Shown: positions 34,485 through 47,115 of the stretch, piece by piece
How the letters are laid out: each line of letters opens with the position of its first letter
How positions within the stretch are numbered: the stretch's first letter is position 1
Assembly: GCA_001950395.1 (NCBI GenBank)
Contig: BDLO01000001.1
Coordinates: forward strand, 1-64,000
Length of the DNA stretch: 64,000 nucleotides
From: Coriobacteriaceae bacterium EMTCatB1
GTDB taxonomy: Bacteria > Actinomycetota > Coriobacteriia > Anaerosomatales > Anaerosomataceae
Direction of reading: 5' to 3'
Translations under genes and position numbers: made by a program
The notes under the pieces: generated by a model
What the model was told of the DNA's origin: nothing
Databases searched by the model: none
The model's input: only the letters and a program-made list of their open reading frames with translations

Positions 34485-34515
34485 TGCTAGCACTCGCGCC
34501 TCGTGAGTGCTAGCA
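34485..34515. promoter_or_regulatory. CIRCE operator (HrcA binding site)
   Basis: TGCTAGCACTC at 34485-34495 and GAGTGCTAGCA at 34505-34515 form a perfect 11-bp inverted repeat with a 9-nt spacer, matching the CIRCE consensus TTAGCACTC-N9-GAGTGCTAA. The heat-shock repressor HrcA binds this element. It places groES-groEL under HrcA control; hrcA itself is not in the window. Confidence 0.95.
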
Positions 34516-36580: not shown

Positions 36581-36612
36581 GAGGCCCCGGAGGCGTGCGC
36601 CTTCGGGGCCTC
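36581..36612 (+). terminator. Intrinsic terminator after groEL
   Basis: GAGGCCCCGGAGGC at 36581-36594 pairs with GCCTTCGGGGCCTC at 36599-36612 (one G-T wobble) around a 4-nt loop, followed by TTGTGT. The stem is 14 bp and strongly GC-rich, fitting a Rho-independent terminator for groES-groEL. Confidence 0.85.
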
Positions 36613-37034: not shown

Positions 37035-38099
37035 GTGTCGCTCTCTATCGGTATCGTCGGGCTTCCCAACGTGGGGAAGTCGACGCTGTTCACCGCGCTC
37101 ACGCGCAAGCAGGTCGACGCTGCGAACTACCCCTTCGCGACCATCGATCCCAACGTGGGCATCGTGCCGGTTCCGGACCGGCGGCTCGACCGGCTCGCTG
37201 AGATCGTCAAGCCCGAGCGTGTCGTGCCGGCCACCGTCGAGTTCTGGGACATCGCCGGACTTGTGCGAGGCGCAAGCGAGGGCGAGGGGCTCGGCAACCA
37301 GTTCCTCGCGAACATCCGCGAGACCGACGCGATCGTCGAGGTCGTGCGCTTCTTCTCGGACCCCAACGTCGTGCACGTCGCGGGCAAGGTGGACCCGCTC
37401 TCTGACGTCGAGACCATCCGTACGGAGCTCGTCCTCGCGGATCTCGGCACCGTCGAGCGCGCGCTGCCGCGCATCGAGAAGGACGCGAAGCGCGACGCGG
37501 CGTCCGCTGCCAAGCTGGCGACGGTGCGGCGCGTGTACGACCACCTGTCGCAGGGCCATCGCGCGCGCACGATGGCGATGACGGACGAGGAGCGCGAGCA
37601 CCTGCGCGACCTGCACCTGCTCACCATGAAGCCGATGCTGTACGTCGCGAACGTCGACGAGGAGCAGATCCACGAGCCGCTGCCCGAGATCGACGGGCTT
37701 ACGCCGATCCCGATCTGCGCGAAGATCGAGGCCGAGATGGCCGAGCTGGATCCGGGAGAGCTGGAGGAGTTCCTGGCCGTCGAGGGGCTTGAGGAGCCGG
37801 GGCTGAATGCGCTCATCCGCGAGGCGTACCGGCTGCTCGGGCTCATCAGCTTCTTCACCGCGGGCCCCAAGGAGGTGCGGGCGTGGACGGTGCGCGCCGG
37901 CGCCAAGGCGCCTGAGGCAGCGGGGGTCATCCACTCGGACTTCGAGCGCGGGTTCATCAAGGCGGAGGTCATCTCGTTCGCGGACTACGACGCGCTGGGC
38001 TCCGAGGCCGCCGTCAGGGCCGCTGGCAAGCTACGGATGGAGGGGAAGGAGTACGTCGTCCAAGACGGCGACGTGATGCACTTCCGCTTCAACGTGTGA
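37035..38099 (+). CDS. ychF: Redox-regulated ATPase YchF (Obg family)
   Basis: 354-residue P-loop NTPase that prefers ATP over GTP and binds ribosomes. G1 is GLPNVGKST (residues 9-17); the G4 position reads NVDE, the variant that gives ATP specificity in YchF; a TGS domain closes the protein with GPKEVRAWTVRAGAKAPEAAGVIH and RMEGKEYVVQDGDVMHFRF. GTG at 37035 is 4 nt after CAGGAGGA. The frame is open back into the preceding gene but that part is out of family. Length normal. Confidence 0.96.
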   Translation: MSLSIGIVGLPNVGKSTLFTALTRKQVDAANYPFATIDPNVGIVPVPDRRLDRLAEIVKPERVVPATVEFWDIAGLVRGASEGEGLGNQFLANIRETDAIVEVVRFFSDPNVVHVAGKVDPLSDVETIRTELVLADLGTVERALPRIEKDAKRDAASAAKLATVRRVYDHLSQGHRARTMAMTDEEREHLRDLHLLTMKPMLYVANVDEEQIHEPLPEIDGLTPIPICAKIEAEMAELDPGELEEFLAVEGLEEPGLNALIREAYRLLGLISFFTAGPKEVRAWTVRAGAKAPEAAGVIHSDFERGFIKAEVISFADYDALGSEAAVRAAGKLRMEGKEYVVQDGDVMHFRFNV

Positions 38100-38151
38100 G
38101 GAAGTCTCGAGCCGCCGAGCGAAAGGTGTTCCTTCGGCTCGCGGAAACCCC

Positions 38152-38296
38152 TAGAATACACAGAACCGAGGACCCCGGATCGTCTCCGGGCATCGTGGAC
38201 CAGATCGCAGCCGCTTCTCGGGCGTACCGGTCTGGTCCTTGTCGCACATAGGGGTCGTTATCAGGGATCTGTTGAGATAGAGGAGGCGCCGCCAGC
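38152..38296 (+). promoter_or_regulatory. guaB3 promoter and structured 5' leader RNA
   Basis: TAGAAT at 38152-38157 is a good -10 with a poor -35 (TTCCTT at 38129-38134, 17-bp spacer). A transcript from about 38164 has a leader of roughly 130 nt containing a hairpin CCCGGA/TCCGGG (38174-38179 with 38185-38190) and a larger stem pairing GGACCAGATCG at 38197-38207 with CGGTCTGGTCC at 38228-38238 (11 bp, one T-G) around a 20-nt loop. GAGGAGG follows at 38280-38286. It does not match the purine riboswitch core as I know it, and its function is open. Confidence 0.55.
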
Positions 38297-39469
38297 ATGG
38301 AGCTCGAGATCGGACGGGGCAAGACCGCGCGTCAGGCGTACGGGTTCGACGACATCGCCATCGTGCCCTCGCGCAGGACGCGTGACCCACGAGACGTGGA
38401 CATCCACTGGGAATTCTCGTTCCGGGGCAAGACCTACAGCTTCGAGCTGCCGGTGCTCGCCTCCGCGATGGACGGCGTCGTCGACCCGGCGTTCGCGGTC
38501 GAGATGGGCAGGCTCGGCGGGCTCGCGGTCCTCAACCTGGAGGGCATCCAGACGCGCTACGAAGACCCCGCGCCGCAGCTGGACGCCATCGCCTCGTTCC
38601 CGAAGGAAGAGGCCACGGCTCGCATGCAGGAGATCTACAAGGAGCCGGTCAAGCCCGAGCTCATCACTGAGCGCATCAAGCAGATCAAGGCCGGCGGCGT
38701 GCTCGCGGCTGCCTCGCTCACCCCGCAGAACGTGGAGCGCTACATCGAGCACGCGCTCGCGGGCGGGCTGGACATCCTCGTCATCCAGGGCACGGTCGTG
38801 AGCGCCGAGCACGTCTCGTCGTACGACAAGCCCCTCGACCTCAACGCGTTCGTGCGCGACCTCGACATCCCGTGCATCATCGGCGGCTGCTGCTCCTACC
38901 AGGGCGCGCTGCACCTAATGCGGACGGGCGCGGTGGGCGTGCTGGTGGGTGTCGGACCCGGCCACGCGTGCACCTCGCGTCGCGTGCTCGGCATCGGCGT
39001 GCCGCAGGCCACCGCGATCGCGGACGCTGCGGCGGCTCGCCTGCGCCACATCGACGAGACCGGGCAGTACTGCCACGTCATCGCGGACGGCGGCATGCGC
39101 ACGGGCGGTGACGTCGCGAAGGCGATCGCGTGCGGCGCGGATGCGGTGATGATCGGCTCGCCGCTCGCCGCCGCCGAGGAAGCGCCTGGCCGCGGGTACC
39201 ACTGGGGCATGGCGACCTTCCACCCCGACCTGCCGCGCGGCACGCGCGTCTACGCAGGACGGAAGGGCACGCTCAAGCAGATCCTCGTCGGTCCGGCCCA
39301 CGAGAACGACGGAACGCTCAACCTCTTCGGCGCGCTTCGGACCTCGATGGCCACCTGCGGCTACGAGAACCTCAAGTCGTTCCAGAAGGCGGAGGTCATG
39401 ATCGCCCCGGCGCTGCAGACCGAGGGCAAGGTCCTGCAGCAGACGCAGGGCGTCGGCATGGGCAAGTAG
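38297..39469 (+). CDS. guaB3: GuaB3-type IMP dehydrogenase family protein
   Basis: 390-residue TIM-barrel enzyme of the IMP dehydrogenase/GMP reductase superfamily without the CBS pair, matching the GuaB3 group of actinobacteria and cyanobacteria. The catalytic-loop cysteine is C225 in [20 protein letters not shown], and the monophosphate-binding [20 protein letters not shown] is intact. The likely reaction is IMP to XMP in guanine nucleotide synthesis, supported by guaA 12 nt downstream; GMP reductase activity cannot be excluded from sequence. ATG at 38297 follows GAGGAGG. Confidence 0.9.
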
Positions 39470-39481
39470 GCGGCCGCCGGG

Positions 39482-41029
39482 ATGACGGAGCACCTGTCGC
39501 AGCCAACGGTCCTCGTCCTCGACTTCGGCGCGCAGTACGCGCAGCTGATCGCGCGGCGCGTGCGCGAGGCGCGCGTGTTCAGCGAGATCGTGCCGTTCGA
39601 CATCAGCGCCGAGGAGGTCGAGCGCCGCAAGCCGGCTGCGATCATCCTCTCCGGCGGCCCTGCGAGCGTGTACGCAGAGGGCGCGCCGCACATGGACAAG
39701 CGCGTGCTCGAGCTCGGCATCCCCGTGCTCGGCTTCTGCTATGGCATCCAGGAGATGGCGACGCAGCTCGGCGGGACGGTGCCGCGCACGGACGTCGGCG
39801 AGTACGGGTTCGCGGAGCTGCGCGTGACCGAACCCGCGAGCGCCCTGTTCGAGGGCGTGCCGGAGGTCTCGCAGTGCTGGATGAGCCACCGCGACAGCGT
39901 GGGGGAGGTGCCGCCTGGGTTCCGCGTGACCGCTTCCACGCCCACGACGCGAGTGGCCGCGATGGAGGACCCTGAGCGGCGGCTGTACGCGACGCAGTTC
40001 CACCCCGAGGTGGCGCACACCCAGTTCGGGCAGCGCATCATCCGCAACTTCCTGTACGAGGTCGCGGGCATCCCGCCGACCTGGACGATGGTGAACATCA
40101 TCGACGAGTCGGTGGCCCGCATCCGCGAGCAGGTCGGCTCCGACCGGGTGATCTGCGGGCTTTCCGGCGGCGTCGATTCGAGCGTGGTGGCGGCGCTGCT
40201 GCACCGTGCGATCGGCGACCAGCTGACCTGCGTGTTCGTCGACCACGGGCTGCTTCGGCTCGACGAGGCCGAGCAGGTGGTGCGGACGTTCCGTGACGCC
40301 TTCCACGTCAACCTCGTGCACGTAGACGCATCCGAGCGCTTCTTGTCGCTTCTCGCCGGCGTGACGGACCCCGAGCAGAAGCGGCGCATCATCGGCGAGG
40401 AGTTCTGGAAGGTCTTCTTCGAGGAGGCCCAGAAGCTCGAAGGCGTGAAGTGGCTCGCGCAGGGCACGCTCTACCCCGACGTCATCGAGAGCGGCAGCAA
40501 GACCGCCGCGAAGATCAAGAGCCACCACAACCTCATCCCGTTCCCCGAGGGCGTGCACTTCGATCTGATCGAGCCGCTGAAGTGGCTGTTCAAAGACGAG
40601 GTGCGCGCGGTGGGCACCGAACTCGGGCTACCTGAGGAGATCGTGCACCGGCAGCCGTTCCCGGGACCGGGGCTCGCGGTGCGCATCATCGGTGAGGTGA
40701 CGCGCGAGAAGCTGGAGATCCTGCGGCGCGCCGACGCCATCGTGCGCGAGGAGATCGGCGCGTGGGACACCGGGCGCCAGGTGTGGCAGTACTTCGCGGT
40801 GCTGCCCGACATCCGCTCGGTGGGCGTGATGGGCGACGAGCGCACCTACGGGCACCCGATCATCGTGCGCGCGGTGGCCTCCGCCGACGCGATGACCGCC
40901 GACTGGGCGCGGCTTCCGCACGACCTGCTCGCCCGCATCTCGAACCGCATCGTGAACGAGGTGGAGGGCATCAACCGCGTCGCCTACGACATCACGAGCA
41001 AGCCGCCTGGCACGATCGAGTGGGAGTAG
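39482..41029 (+). CDS. guaA: GMP synthase (glutamine-hydrolysing)
   Basis: 515-residue enzyme converting XMP to GMP. The N-terminal class I glutaminase (about 1-195) has catalytic C86 (GFCYGIQ) with H174 and E176 (HPEV). The ATP pyrophosphatase domain has the P-loop [15 protein letters not shown], and the C-terminal dimerisation domain ends [18 protein letters not shown]. It forms a pair with guaB3. It is the last housekeeping gene before the defence island. Confidence 0.97.
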
Positions 41030-41092
41030 GGGGAGGGCGCATCAGTTCAGGCCGGGAGCGTCACCCATGAGCGTGCGAGTGAGGTGGAACCG

Positions 41093-42121
41093 ATGGCAGT
41101 GTGGTTGATTCGAGCGGGCTCACACGGTGAATACGAGCAGAAGTTCTTGATCGAAAGCCGTGTGTACGTCACATGGGAGCGCCTCGACGTAGACCTCTCG
41201 AAGCTGCCGAACCAGAAGGCGCTCCGGGACGCGATGGCGGTGCGTTACCCGGACGCGAAGGCCAAGACCATCATGAACTGGGCGAGCCAGGTCTGGCCGT
41301 TCGCGCATGAGATCAAAGAAGGCGACCTCGTGGTTCTCCCACTGAAGAGCCAGCGAGCCATCCAAGTCGGAGAAATCGTTGGACCGTATCACTTTGAGCC
41401 GAAGGGTCCAGAACCGTTCTATCACTGGCTTCCGGTGAAGTGGGTCTTCGACCCCGTGCCGCGTGCGCACTTTGGCAAGGACCTTCTGTACAGCTTCGGT
41501 GCGTTCATGACGATTTGTCGGATCACGCGCAACAACGCCGAGGCGCGGCTGGAAGCCATGCGCAAGAACGGGTGGAAACCCGAGGAGCTTGCTGGTGGTG
41601 CCGCTGCAAGAGACCTCGTGGACGAGGTGACTGCGAGCACGGATCTCGAGGAGCTTGCTCGCGACCAGATTGCGCAGCTCATCTCTGCGCGCTTCAAGGG
41701 ACACGAGTTGACCCGGCTCGTGGATGCGATTCTCCGAGCGCAAGGGTACACGACGTATCTCAGCCCTGCGGGTCCTGATGGCGGCGTCGACATCCTGGCG
41801 GGGGCAGGGCCGCTCGGCTTCGGGGAGCCGAGACTGTGTGTTGAAGTGAAGTCGGTAGAGTCGCCCACAGGCCGCGAAGCGGTAGACAAGCTCCTGGGTG
41901 CGGTAACGAAGTTCGGGGCAACCGAGGGGCTGTTCGTTGCCTGGGGTGGTTTCAAGGGACCTGTGCCGAAGGACATGGCTGCGAGCTTCTTCCGTGTGCG
42001 GCTGTGGACACAGAACGAGCTGCTCGAAGAGCTTTTTGAGCATTATGACCAGCTCGACGACGACATCAAGGCCGAGTTGCCCCTGAAGCGTATCTGGACG
42101 GTCGCGGCTCCAGAGGAGTGA
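41093..42121 (+). CDS. Mrr-like restriction endonuclease with N-terminal reader domain
   Basis: 342-residue predicted type IV-like endonuclease. Residues 1-~140 (VWLIRAGSHGEYEQKFL..., with GDLVVLPLKSQRAIQVGEI) look like a PUA/EVE-type modified-base reader. Residues ~200-310 are an Mrr-fold PD-(D/E)xK nuclease: LVDAILRAQGYTTYLSPAG, then D233 in GGVDILAG and E251-x-K253 in CVEVKS. Such proteins cut DNA carrying foreign modification. ATG at 41093 follows GAGGTGG; GTG at 41084 is an alternative. It opens the defence island right after guaA. Confidence 0.85.
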   Translation: MAVWLIRAGSHGEYEQKFLIESRVYVTWERLDVDLSKLPNQKALRDAMAVRYPDAKAKTIMNWASQVWPFAHEIKEGDLVVLPLKSQRAIQVGEIVGPYHFEPKGPEPFYHWLPVKWVFDPVPRAHFGKDLLYSFGAFMTICRITRNNAEARLEAMRKNGWKPEELAGGAAARDLVDEVTASTDLEELARDQIAQLISARFKGHELTRLVDAILRAQGYTTYLSPAGPDGGVDILAGAGPLGFGEPRLCVEVKSVESPTGREAVDKLLGAVTKFGATEGLFVAWGGFKGPVPKDMAASFFRVRLWTQNELLEELFEHYDQLDDDIKAELPLKRIWTVAAPEE

Positions 42122-42383: not shown

Positions 42384-43958
42384 GTGAGCATGGCACCTAC
42401 CACGAAGGAAGCTCAAAGAGCAGAACTGCACAAGACGATCTGGCGTATCGCCAACGATCTGCGCGGATCGGTGGACGGGTGGGATTTCAAGAGCTACGTG
42501 CTCGGGATGCTCTTCTACCGGTTCATCTCCGAGAACCTGTGCGCCTATCTCAACGAGCTGGAGCGCAAGGCTGGCAACCCTGACTTCGACTACGCAGCGC
42601 TGACGGATGAGCAGGCCGAGTTCGGCCGCGCGGAGACTGTGGCGGAGAAGGGCTTCTACATCCTGCCGAGCGAGCTCTTCCAGAACGTGCGCAAGCGCGC
42701 GCGCCACGATGAGAACCTCAACGAGACGCTCGAGCAGGTCTTCCGGAACATCGAAGGCTCGGCGGTCGGCACACCGAGCGAGGACGACCTCAAAGGACTC
42801 TTCGATGACTTCGATGTCAACAGTCCCAAGCTCGGGCCGACGGTGGCGAAGCGTAATGAGAAGCTCGTGAAGCTCATGGACGCGATCGGCGACCTCGACC
42901 TGGGGCGGTTCGAGGACCATACCATCGACGCCTTCGGAGATGCGTACGAGTACCTGATGACGATGTACGCATCGAGCGCGGGCAAGTCGGGCGGGGAGTT
43001 CTTCACGCCGCAGGAGGTCTCGAACCTGCTCGCGAGGATCACGGTGCTTGGCAAGACCGAGGTGAGCAAGGTCTACGACCCCGCATGCGGGTCAGGCTCC
43101 CTGTTGCTGCAGTTCGCCAAGGTGCTTGGCAAGGACAACGTGCGCCAGGGATTCTTCGGCCAGGAGATCAACCTGACCACCTACAACCTTGCGCGCATCA
43201 ACATGTTCCTGCACGACATCAACTACGAGAAGTTCGACATCGCGCACGGCGACACGCTGCTGGAACCCGCCCACTGGGACGACCAGCCGTTCGAGGCGAT
43301 CGTCTCCAATCCGCCGTACTCCATCAAGTGGGACGGCGACGCGAATCCGCTCCTCATCAACGACCCGCGCTTCGCGCCCGCTGGCGTGCTCGCACCCAAG
43401 TCCAAGGCCGACCTCGCCTTCACGATGCACATCCTGAGTTGGCTTAGCGTCGACGGCACGGCGGCCATCGTCGAGTTCCCCGGTGTGCTCTACCGCGGCG
43501 GCGCTGAGCGCAAGATCCGCAAGTACCTCATCGACAACAACTACGTCGACGCGGTCATCCAGCTGCCGCCGGACCTGTTCTTCGGCACCACCATCGCCAC
43601 GTGCGTGATCGTGCTGAAGAAGTCGAAGGCCGACAACGCCACGCTCTTCATCGACGCCTCAGCCGAGTTCGTGCGCGTGGGCAACAAGAACAAGCTCACC
43701 GAGGAGAACCGTCAGAGGATCCTGGACGCCTATGCGGAGCGTAAGGATGTGGAGCACTTTGCGCGTCTGGTGCCGAATGCCGAGATCGCTGAGAACGACT
43801 ACAACATCGCCGTGAGCTCGTACGTGGAGCAGCCCGACACGCGCGAGGAGATCGACATCACGGCGCTGAACGCCGAGATCGCGCGCATCGTGGCGCGGCA
43901 GGCCGAGCTGCGCGCGCAGATCGATGCGATCGTGGCGGAGCTGGAGGGCGGGAAGTGA
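42384..43958 (+). CDS. hsdM: Type I restriction-modification system methyltransferase HsdM
   Basis: 524-residue N6-adenine DNA methyltransferase subunit. Motif I is DPACGSGS (residues 232-239) and the catalytic motif IV is NPPY (309-312). The N-terminal helical domain ([31 protein letters not shown]) is typical of HsdM and contacts HsdS. GTG at 42384 follows AGGGAAGG; ATG at 42390 is an alternative. It overlaps hsdS by 4 nt (GTGA). Both modification and, with HsdR, restriction need this protein. Confidence 0.96.
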
Positions 43959-45211
43959 GCCGGATCGACAAGCTGATCGCCGAGCTGTGCCCGGACGGGG
44001 TGCCATATCGGCCGCTGGGCGAGGTATTCGAGACGAAGAATGGCTACACGCCTCCCAAGTCCGACCCGTCGAATTGGACCAATGGCACCGTGCCATGGTT
44101 CCGGATGGAAGATATCCGAGAGAACGGCGGGATTCTCGAGGACGCGATTCAGCACATCCCCGAATCGGCCGTCAAAGGCGGGCGCCTATTCCCGCCTGAC
44201 TCAATCATCGTCGCTACTTCGGCGACCGTGGGCGAACATGCGTTGATCCGAGTCCCGTTTCTGTCTAACCAGAGATTCACTGCCATGTGGCCGCGTCCGA
44301 AGTTCCGAGAGCGCCTCGACATGAAGTTCGTCTACTACTACTGCTTCATCCTCGACGACTGGTGCAAGAAGAACACCACCACTTCGAGTTTTGCTTCCGT
44401 GGACATGTGCGGATTCAAGAAGTTCAGAATCCCCGTCCCGCCGCTCGAAGTGCAGCGAGAGATCGTGCGTATACTGGACTTGTTCACGACGCTGGAAGCG
44501 GAGCTGGAAGCGGAGCTGGAAGCGGAGCTGGAAGCCCGGCGGCGTCAGTATGCCCATTACCGCGACTCGCTTCTGACCTTCCCCGAGGGCAGCGTCCGGT
44601 GGGCGACGCTGGGTGAGGTCGGCACTATCTTCGGTGGTCTCACTGGGAAGTCCAAGACCGACTTCGCTAATGGCAATGCGCGCTACGTTTCATACACGAA
44701 CGTGTTCAACCACATCGCTATTGACACGGTCCCGGACGACTTCGTGCGTGTGGCCTCAGGAGAACGCCAGCGCGCGTTGCGCCGTGGCGATGTGCTGTTC
44801 ACGGGTTCCTCAGAGTCTGCGGATGAAGTCGCGGTCTCCTCGGTCGTGACTGCGGCAATCGATGAGCCGTTGTACCTGAACAGCTTCTGCATTGGGTTTC
44901 GTCCGCATGATCCAGATCTTCTGTATCCCGACTTCGCAAAGCATTTGTTCCGATCCGCAGGCATGCGTAGGCAGCTTGTGAAGACGGCGAGCGGAGTCAC
45001 ACGATTCAACGTCTCGAAGCGCCGGTTGGCCCAGGTGCGATTCCCTGTCCCTTCGCTTGAAGAGCAGCGGCGCATCGCCGCCATCCTCGACAAGTTCGAC
45101 GCGCTCGTGAACGACCTCAGCTCTGGTCTGCCGGCCGAGATCGCTGCTCGCCGCCAGCAGTACGAGTACTACCGCGATAGGCTGCTCGTCTTCAAAGAAA
45201 CCGCGTCATGA
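43955..45211 (+). CDS. hsdS: Type I restriction-modification specificity subunit HsdS
   Basis: 418-residue DNA-recognition subunit with two target recognition domains. TRD1 (about 1-165) starts [21 protein letters not shown]2 (about 210-385) starts [16 protein letters not shown]. Each is followed by a conserved helical spacer: the first contains [15 protein letters not shown], the second [15 protein letters not shown], so the protein is an internal duplication. The central spacer carries tandem LEAE repeats encoded by 12-bp DNA repeats. The GC content of TRD1 is visibly lower than in neighbouring genes, as expected for exchangeable recognition domains. The target sequence cannot be predicted. 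Confidence 0.95.
44492..44536 (+). repeat. 12-bp tandem repeats in hsdS spacer
   Basis: CTGGAAGCGGAG occurs three times in exact tandem at 44492-44503, 44504-44515 and 44516-44527, followed by a partial copy CTGGAAGCC at 44528-44536. It encodes [15 protein letters not shown] in the helix joining the two recognition domains. In the EcoR124 family, change in the number of a 4-residue repeat at this place alters the spacer length of the recognised DNA sequence. Confidence 0.9.
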
Positions 45212-47078: not shown

Positions 47079-47107
47079 TTGGATTGCATACTAACATTGC
47101 CTATGTT
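47079..47107 (+). promoter_or_regulatory. Promoter of the regulator-nucleotidyltransferase-hsdR operon
   Basis: TTGGAT at 47079-47084 and TATGTT at 47102-47107 are separated by 17 bp. The spacer and -10 lie inside the large palindrome at 47085-47115, so a protein bound there would block RNA polymerase. Confidence 0.65.
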
Positions 47108-47115
47108 AGTATGCA
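47085..47115. promoter_or_regulatory. Perfect 13-bp inverted repeat, probable operator
   Basis: TGCATACTAACAT at 47085-47097 and ATGTTAGTATGCA at 47103-47115 are perfect inverted copies separated by 5 nt (TGCCT). The site is AT-rich in a GC-rich genome and overlaps a promoter. It is the obvious target for the winged-helix regulator encoded 15 nt downstream. Confidence 0.8.

Follow-up and report, generated by a model that had tools for sequence, protein, structure and literature searches.

An apparently undescribed, conserved leader RNA ahead of guaB3-guaA in one order of the Coriobacteriia

How is GTP kept in bounds in a lineage whose only enzyme of the IMP dehydrogenase (IMPDH) family appears to be GuaB3, a protein without the CBS module? 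The question is raised by a locus in the window (the whole 64,000-nucleotide stretch of DNA analysed here, taken from a genome of 1.84 Mb in a single contig), where the gene order is ychF (TIGR00092), a leader, guaB3 (TIGR01304) and guaA (NF000848). The features of the locus discussed below all lie on the forward strand. The guaB3 gene (38297-39469) matches TIGR01304 with 536.5 bits (cut-off 342.1), and in Pfam terms its product has the IMPDH domain and lacks the CBS domain. It is followed by guaA (39482-41029; NF000848 at 792 bits, cut-off 400), coding for a glutamine-hydrolysing GMP synthase. By eye, a restriction-like reading frame (41084-42121) and, shortly downstream of guaA, adjacent frames resembling the methylase and specificity subunits of a type I restriction-modification system (42384-45211) were also noted, and at 47085-47115 a perfect palindrome (TGCATACTAACAT-TGCCT-ATGTTAGTATGCA) lies at the start of a regulator-like reading frame.

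GuaB3 appears to be the sole IMPDH family enzyme throughout the order. Of 69 genomes belonging to it, not one has a canonical IMPDH above the TIGR01302 cut-off, against 11 of 14 control genomes; in the window's genome, GuaB3 itself gives the best TIGR01302 match. A second guaB3-like match in that genome was rejected, its translation being that of a glutamate-synthase-like protein and not of an IMPDH. The listed genomes of the same class that had no match at E <= 1e-100 in the phylum sample all belong to other orders. Because this GuaB3 is alone and next to guaA, it presumably has IMPDH activity. The cyanobacterial GuaB3 is likewise devoid of CBS pairs and that of Synechococcus is treated as the organism's IMPDH (PMC13273366); in M. 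tuberculosis an active IMPDH has been demonstrated for only guaB2 of three genes (PMC10912719). According to the latter source, inhibition of IMPDH by GDP and GTP proceeds through their binding to the Bateman (CBS) domain. With GuaB3 lacking this inhibition module, control at the level of expression would make sense.

The leader is preceded by a presumed promoter, whose -10 element TAGAAT (38152-38157) had been correctly recognised in the initial annotation and sits just outside the leader start given there (38158). Relatives carry TAGAAT, TAGCAT or TACAAT at this place, some of them with a perfect TTGACA 17 nt further upstream (L010 and L025), and transcription would be expected to start near 38164. 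Downstream of this point comes a 5' element, CCGAGGA (38166-38172), which pattern matches and complementarity suggest as a candidate pseudoknot partner of a loop further on, and then P0, a 6-bp hairpin with a 5-nt loop (CCCGGA, 38174-38179, with UCCGGG, 38185-38190) read from the sequence and an alignment of the genus. Two alignments, A1 and A2, place an upstream box in the following linker (38191-38196), which reads GCAGCA-N4-AUC in most relatives and is degenerate in the window's genus. The next hairpin, P1-P2 (38197-38238), is indicated by covariation and fold z-scores; it consists of P1, an 11-bp stem with one G-U pair (GGACCAGAUCG, 38197-38207, with CGGUCUGGUCC, 38228-38238), closing a 20-nt loop in which 3 bp of P2 (38212-38214 with 38222-38224) can be read from the window sequence around a 7-nt loop, UUCUCGG (38215-38221). 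A conserved, U-enriched tail, UUGUCGCACAUA (38239-38250; YUUGUCGUAUC in most relatives), leads towards the ribosome-binding site GAGGAGG (38280-38286) and the ATG of guaB3 at 38297. The 6-bp hairpin, the 11-bp stem with its 20-nt loop and the GAGGAGG of the initial annotation are thus all present where it had put them.

Does this arrangement amount to more than chance? By the window sequence alone it does not; by comparison with relatives it does. The 143-nt leader stretch folds no better than its dinucleotide shuffles (z -0.11; 90 of 200 shuffles do as well). Long stems are not rare in this GC-rich window either: 18 separate places hold one of 11 bp or more with a loop of no more than 25 nt, and long-stem rows, nested ones included, number 33 there and 11, 16, 10 and 5 in four Markov controls. 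Comparison brings out an order-wide core in which the GCAGCA-N4-AUC-like box comes first, then P1 (RGACCAGG...CCUGGUCY), enclosing a helix or loop where CUCGG is frequent, and last a tail of the type UUGUCGUAUC.

A covariance model of this core with 8 P1 pairs (R1) found matches in 54 of the 69 genomes of the window's order, and in all 54 the best match ends 36-97 nt ahead of guaB3 on the same strand, which bears out the earlier proposal of a structured leader RNA in front of guaB3-guaA. In the order, the leader sits between a promoter-like conserved element and the gene, and is found only ahead of guaB3. The gene itself is present in 64 of the 69 genomes, and the five without it are also without the motif. 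Another 10 of the 64 have no R1 match; all 10 were inspected and none has such a core, most showing a recognisable -10 element and a short leader. In genus g28 the motif is present in three members and absent from one. The -10 element is retained by most relatives lacking the leader motif, and the motif is absent as a unit from several lineages that have kept the promoter.

Outside the order, R1 matches gave no further instance among those inspected. In the class sample 55 of 296 genomes match, and the single one outside the order (G196, locus L156) is a chance match overlapping a long reading frame and not located ahead of guaB3. The nine matching genomes of the phylum sample (296 genomes) comprise three of the window's genus and six with weak matches, the two best of which lie inside long reading frames away from guaB3; the weak rows of G365, G527, G524 and G506 and a second row of G559 fall outside the inspected set. 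The discarded matches include those at L162 and L163 and the second match of G006 (L174, in a transporter gene), all overlapping long reading frames and none ahead of guaB3, and a minus-strand match in G048 that overlaps this genome's own P1 hairpin. As modelled by R1, the motif is specific to one order, and we consider it very probably a conserved regulatory leader RNA.

The evidence for an RNA structure comes from the way P1 and P0 vary. Conservation of the stems in relatives had been put forward at the outset as one observation on which the proposal would stand or fall, and both P1 and P0 turned out to be kept with compensatory changes. Among 38 aligned cores (alignment A1, drawn from 41 by omitting near-identical ones), 98.4% of P1 cells pair. 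At the outermost pair, 19 cores have A-U, 14 have G-C and 4 have G-U; at the innermost one, 29 have G-C and 7 have A-U; and the central pairs are identical in 37 or 38 of the 38. The P1 covariation score was reached by none of 500 shuffles; pairs changed on both sides number two, a figure attained in 215 of 500 shuffles. A leader outside the A1 set, L151, provides a further compensatory P1 pair, with A-U where other leaders show G-C or G-U. For P0, changes on both sides were read by eye at 2 of the 6 pairs in an alignment of three genomes from the window's genus; in many relatives, not all, hairpins of other sequence take its place (mean z -0.46 for the segments as cut). Folding was assessed in 48 non-redundant leaders, that is, the 52 retrieved by pattern without L009, L011, L012 and L022 (L148 and L151 carry the motif but escaped the pattern and so are absent from the 52). 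The P1-P2 hairpin beats its dinucleotide shuffles in 48/48 (mean z -3.9, all below -1), and the P2 region taken alone has a mean z of -0.89.

An almost invariant six-base inverted repeat, GACCAG-N-CTGGTC, could also be a widely spaced repressor site acting as DNA. This is a very improbable reading, as the spacer between the halves ranges from 19 to 49 nt with no fixed step and tends to fold (24 of 48 spacers fall below z -1), the flanking boxes are asymmetrical, covariation preserves pairing at the ends of P1, and the repeat lies downstream of the promoter. Nor does a translated leader peptide seem credible: the window does have a GTG-started frame of 18 codons spanning the hairpin, and GTG, TTG or ATG precedes GACCAG in some leaders, but in many leaders no start codon occupies this place, and loop lengths are spread over all three frames (20, 17 and 11 of the 48). 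This frame distribution refutes an upstream open reading frame as a conserved feature.

Beyond the nested helices, the P2 loop UUCUCGG of the window is complementary over all 7 nt to CCGAGGA at the 5' end of the leader (38166-38172). A CCGRG-type 5' element was recognised by pattern in 31 of the 52 leaders, and the two putative partners are concordant in 40 of the 52 (both present in 21, neither in 19) with 12 exceptions, the pattern being liable to match accidentally outside the intended register, as happened in L152. In L157 the pairing is stretched to 9 bp, and in L019 its 7 bp are maintained through two changes; permuting the loops among 40 sequences gave p 0.028. In alignment A2 (33 leaders out of 40 non-redundant ones in which a -10 element was recognised), 75.1% of the pseudoknot cells pair as against 97.3% for P1, a count biased in favour of the pseudoknot because the set was chosen for the 5' element, leaving out L007, L010, L017, L020, L025, L029 and L147, which have no CCGRG-type element. 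The pairing is absent in several clades, and an ACC near the leader start persists where the P2 loop is gone. On these sequence comparisons we lean slightly towards a genuine pseudoknot between the 5' end and the P2 loop. The upstream box and the tail were also considered as pairing partners and rejected: a mutual-information scan ranked a P1 pair first, and most of its remaining high-ranking positions are not pairable.

Is this leader one of the known RNA families? It had initially been assigned to no recognised class, and the comparison with Rfam 15 (4227 models, membership requiring that the gathering score of the family be reached) upholds this: no gathering-level match was obtained for the window, and no family matches the window or 14 relatives. 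At E <= 10, the interval 38060-38420 gave nothing relevant and two unrelated weak rows, and the 14 relatives at E <= 1 gave nothing relevant and one unrelated weak row. Motif-less and distant loci (15 searched) had nothing at the gathering level; at E <= 1, 15 distant loci returned 12 rows, all below it. The purine riboswitch, which could not be recognised in the original reading of the sequence, is indeed absent from the Rfam scan rows. Genes that make GMP might lead one to expect a diverged relative of some purine-related class already known (guanine, PRPP, ppGpp, xanthine and so on), and guaA is mentioned many times in a paper on analogues of the ligands of guanine riboswitches (PMC2858708). 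The lack of any relevant Rfam match in the window, the interval around the leader or the 14 relatives, together with an architecture unlike that of the known classes, makes such membership extremely unlikely. Our literature search found no description of a guaB3 leader RNA, the 2017 collection of 224 motifs being covered only through Rfam. Passages of PMC7247131, PMC8632094, PMC13273366 and PMC10912719 describe none, and what look like guaA mentions in those of PMC7247131 are the tetranucleotide GUAA. The structured guaB3-guaA leader RNA is real and apparently undescribed.

What the leader does may be approached through its tail. This averages 3.4 U in 8 positions, where about 1.4 would be expected at a background U frequency of 0.17. 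A stable hairpin between promoter and gene, as in an intrinsic-terminator attenuator, is present in the form of P1-P2, with a -10-like element upstream in most leaders. On a classical terminator score (threshold 0), 7 of the 48 leaders lie above the threshold and 41 below, the window included (-0.6), and no antiterminator complementary to P1 was noticed by eye upstream of it in the leaders. A strong terminator-like hairpin downstream of groEL (36581-36612) scores 40; its tail, TTGTGTCG, resembles that of the guaB3 leader and shows the form of a terminator tail in this genome. Ahead of groES, the same window holds a perfect inverted repeat, TGCTAGCACTC-N9-GAGTGCTAGCA (34485-34515), which we take to resemble the CIRCE operator for HrcA.

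These observations would best fit a cis-acting leader RNA controlling guaB3-guaA by transcription attenuation, the mechanism with most support among those considered and a model that, taken as a whole, we hold at even odds. The P1-P2 hairpin and its U-enriched tail would act as an intrinsic terminator, weak and subject to regulation, or as a pause hairpin. The sensing part would be made up of the 5' element, P0 and the pseudoknot from loop to 5' end, and would strengthen or weaken the hairpin according to the guanine nucleotide state, read directly or via a protein. The outcome would be feedback on GMP synthesis where the sole IMPDH family enzyme has no allosteric CBS module. Whether attenuation operates and not translational control is a matter on which we are evenly divided, and a small molecule may be the partner just as readily as a protein.

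Control of translation can be judged from the region between tail and start codon, which varies from 52 to 113 nt in the 48 leaders and whose part up to the ribosome-binding site is unstructured on average (mean z -0.08, from folding alone, to which state-specific pairing is invisible). With so variable a distance and no structure on average, there is no evident sign that the ribosome-binding site is blocked directly. A riboswitch with an expression platform covering that site could draw on the strong GAGGAGG, to whose GAGGAG the CUUCUC of the window's loop could pair; this 6-bp match is not kept in other loops, and with the variable, unstructured stretch it leaves such a riboswitch improbable. 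The same stretch speaks against a protein-binding leader, in which GuaB3, GuaA or a dedicated regulator would bind P1 and the boxes and either repress translation or expose the mRNA to decay. Here the near-identity of the central P1 pairs, kept in sequence and not just in pairing, and the single site per genome ahead of one operon, as in autoregulation, are in favour, and we regard this explanation as somewhat unlikely.

Also in favour of attenuation are guaB3 leaders of other lineages. Among the 69 such leaders scanned, 55 were readable, some being the same contig twice, and canonical terminators were found in several (L069, L072, L090, L093, L105, L180, L181, L185, L190 and L195), lying between the gene and a promoter-like element, with CCAG/CUGG at the base of the hairpin and a run of U after it. 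Many other distant leaders, mainly GC-rich, have no such terminator, and R1 has no match in the terminator-type leaders on which it was run. We infer that an old attenuator may have been kept in the window's order in the form of a weaker hairpin, rich in GC and constrained in sequence. In L105, L072 and L071 the terminator hairpin is overlapped by short ATG frames, which are probably due to chance because their peptides are unlike each other. Four loci of another deep actinobacterial lineage (L181, L185, L190 and L195) display a second strongly conserved guaB3 leader, comprising a TTGACA/TATAAT promoter, the conserved sequence AAAATTTTACCCATGAA, a hairpin of the type AACCARUU-N4-AAUUGGUU and, ahead of a U run, a terminator hairpin in which GCUAAGCCC...GGGACAAAUAGC is conserved. 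It has no Rfam match at the gathering level.

Carried to its furthest point, the proposal would be of a new riboswitch class sensing GMP, GTP or ppGpp, built on a pseudoknot in which the loop of an invariant hairpin pairs with the transcript's 5' end, and derived from an earlier attenuator of the terminator type that other deep actinobacterial lineages still display. This we put forward as a speculation, and a rather doubtful one. If true, the RNA would supply the feedback that canonical IMP dehydrogenase gets from its CBS module. More generally, a conserved leader at the one operon of the branch offers a concrete, testable answer to the question of how GTP is kept in bounds, and it is an orphan RNA candidate whose pathway is unusually clear.

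Among known systems, terminator-type attenuators and riboswitch leaders share with the guaB3 leader a structured RNA between the promoter and the first biosynthetic gene, a hairpin followed by a U-enriched tail, and loss or retention as a module. The guaB3 leader differs from them in a U tract that is weak in most members, its nearly invariant hairpin sequence and the fact that no competing antiterminator was found by eye. Guanine (purine), PRPP and ppGpp riboswitches stand before purine genes and thus have pathway and position in common with it, but their layouts are unlike that of the guaB3 leader, which is one invariant hairpin with flanking boxes. SAM-II and preQ1 aptamers are pseudoknots of the H-type or loop-loop kind, and would share with it the pairing of a loop to a single strand, which is a candidate feature of the guaB3 leader; its partner strand would be the start of the transcript, which precedes the hairpin and is separated from it by a further hairpin. 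Closest in gene context are the distant terminator-type guaB3 leaders, which have the same gene, a CCAG/CUGG base, an inner helix and a U-rich tail often followed by AUA, and which differ by true U runs, lower GC content and other flanks.
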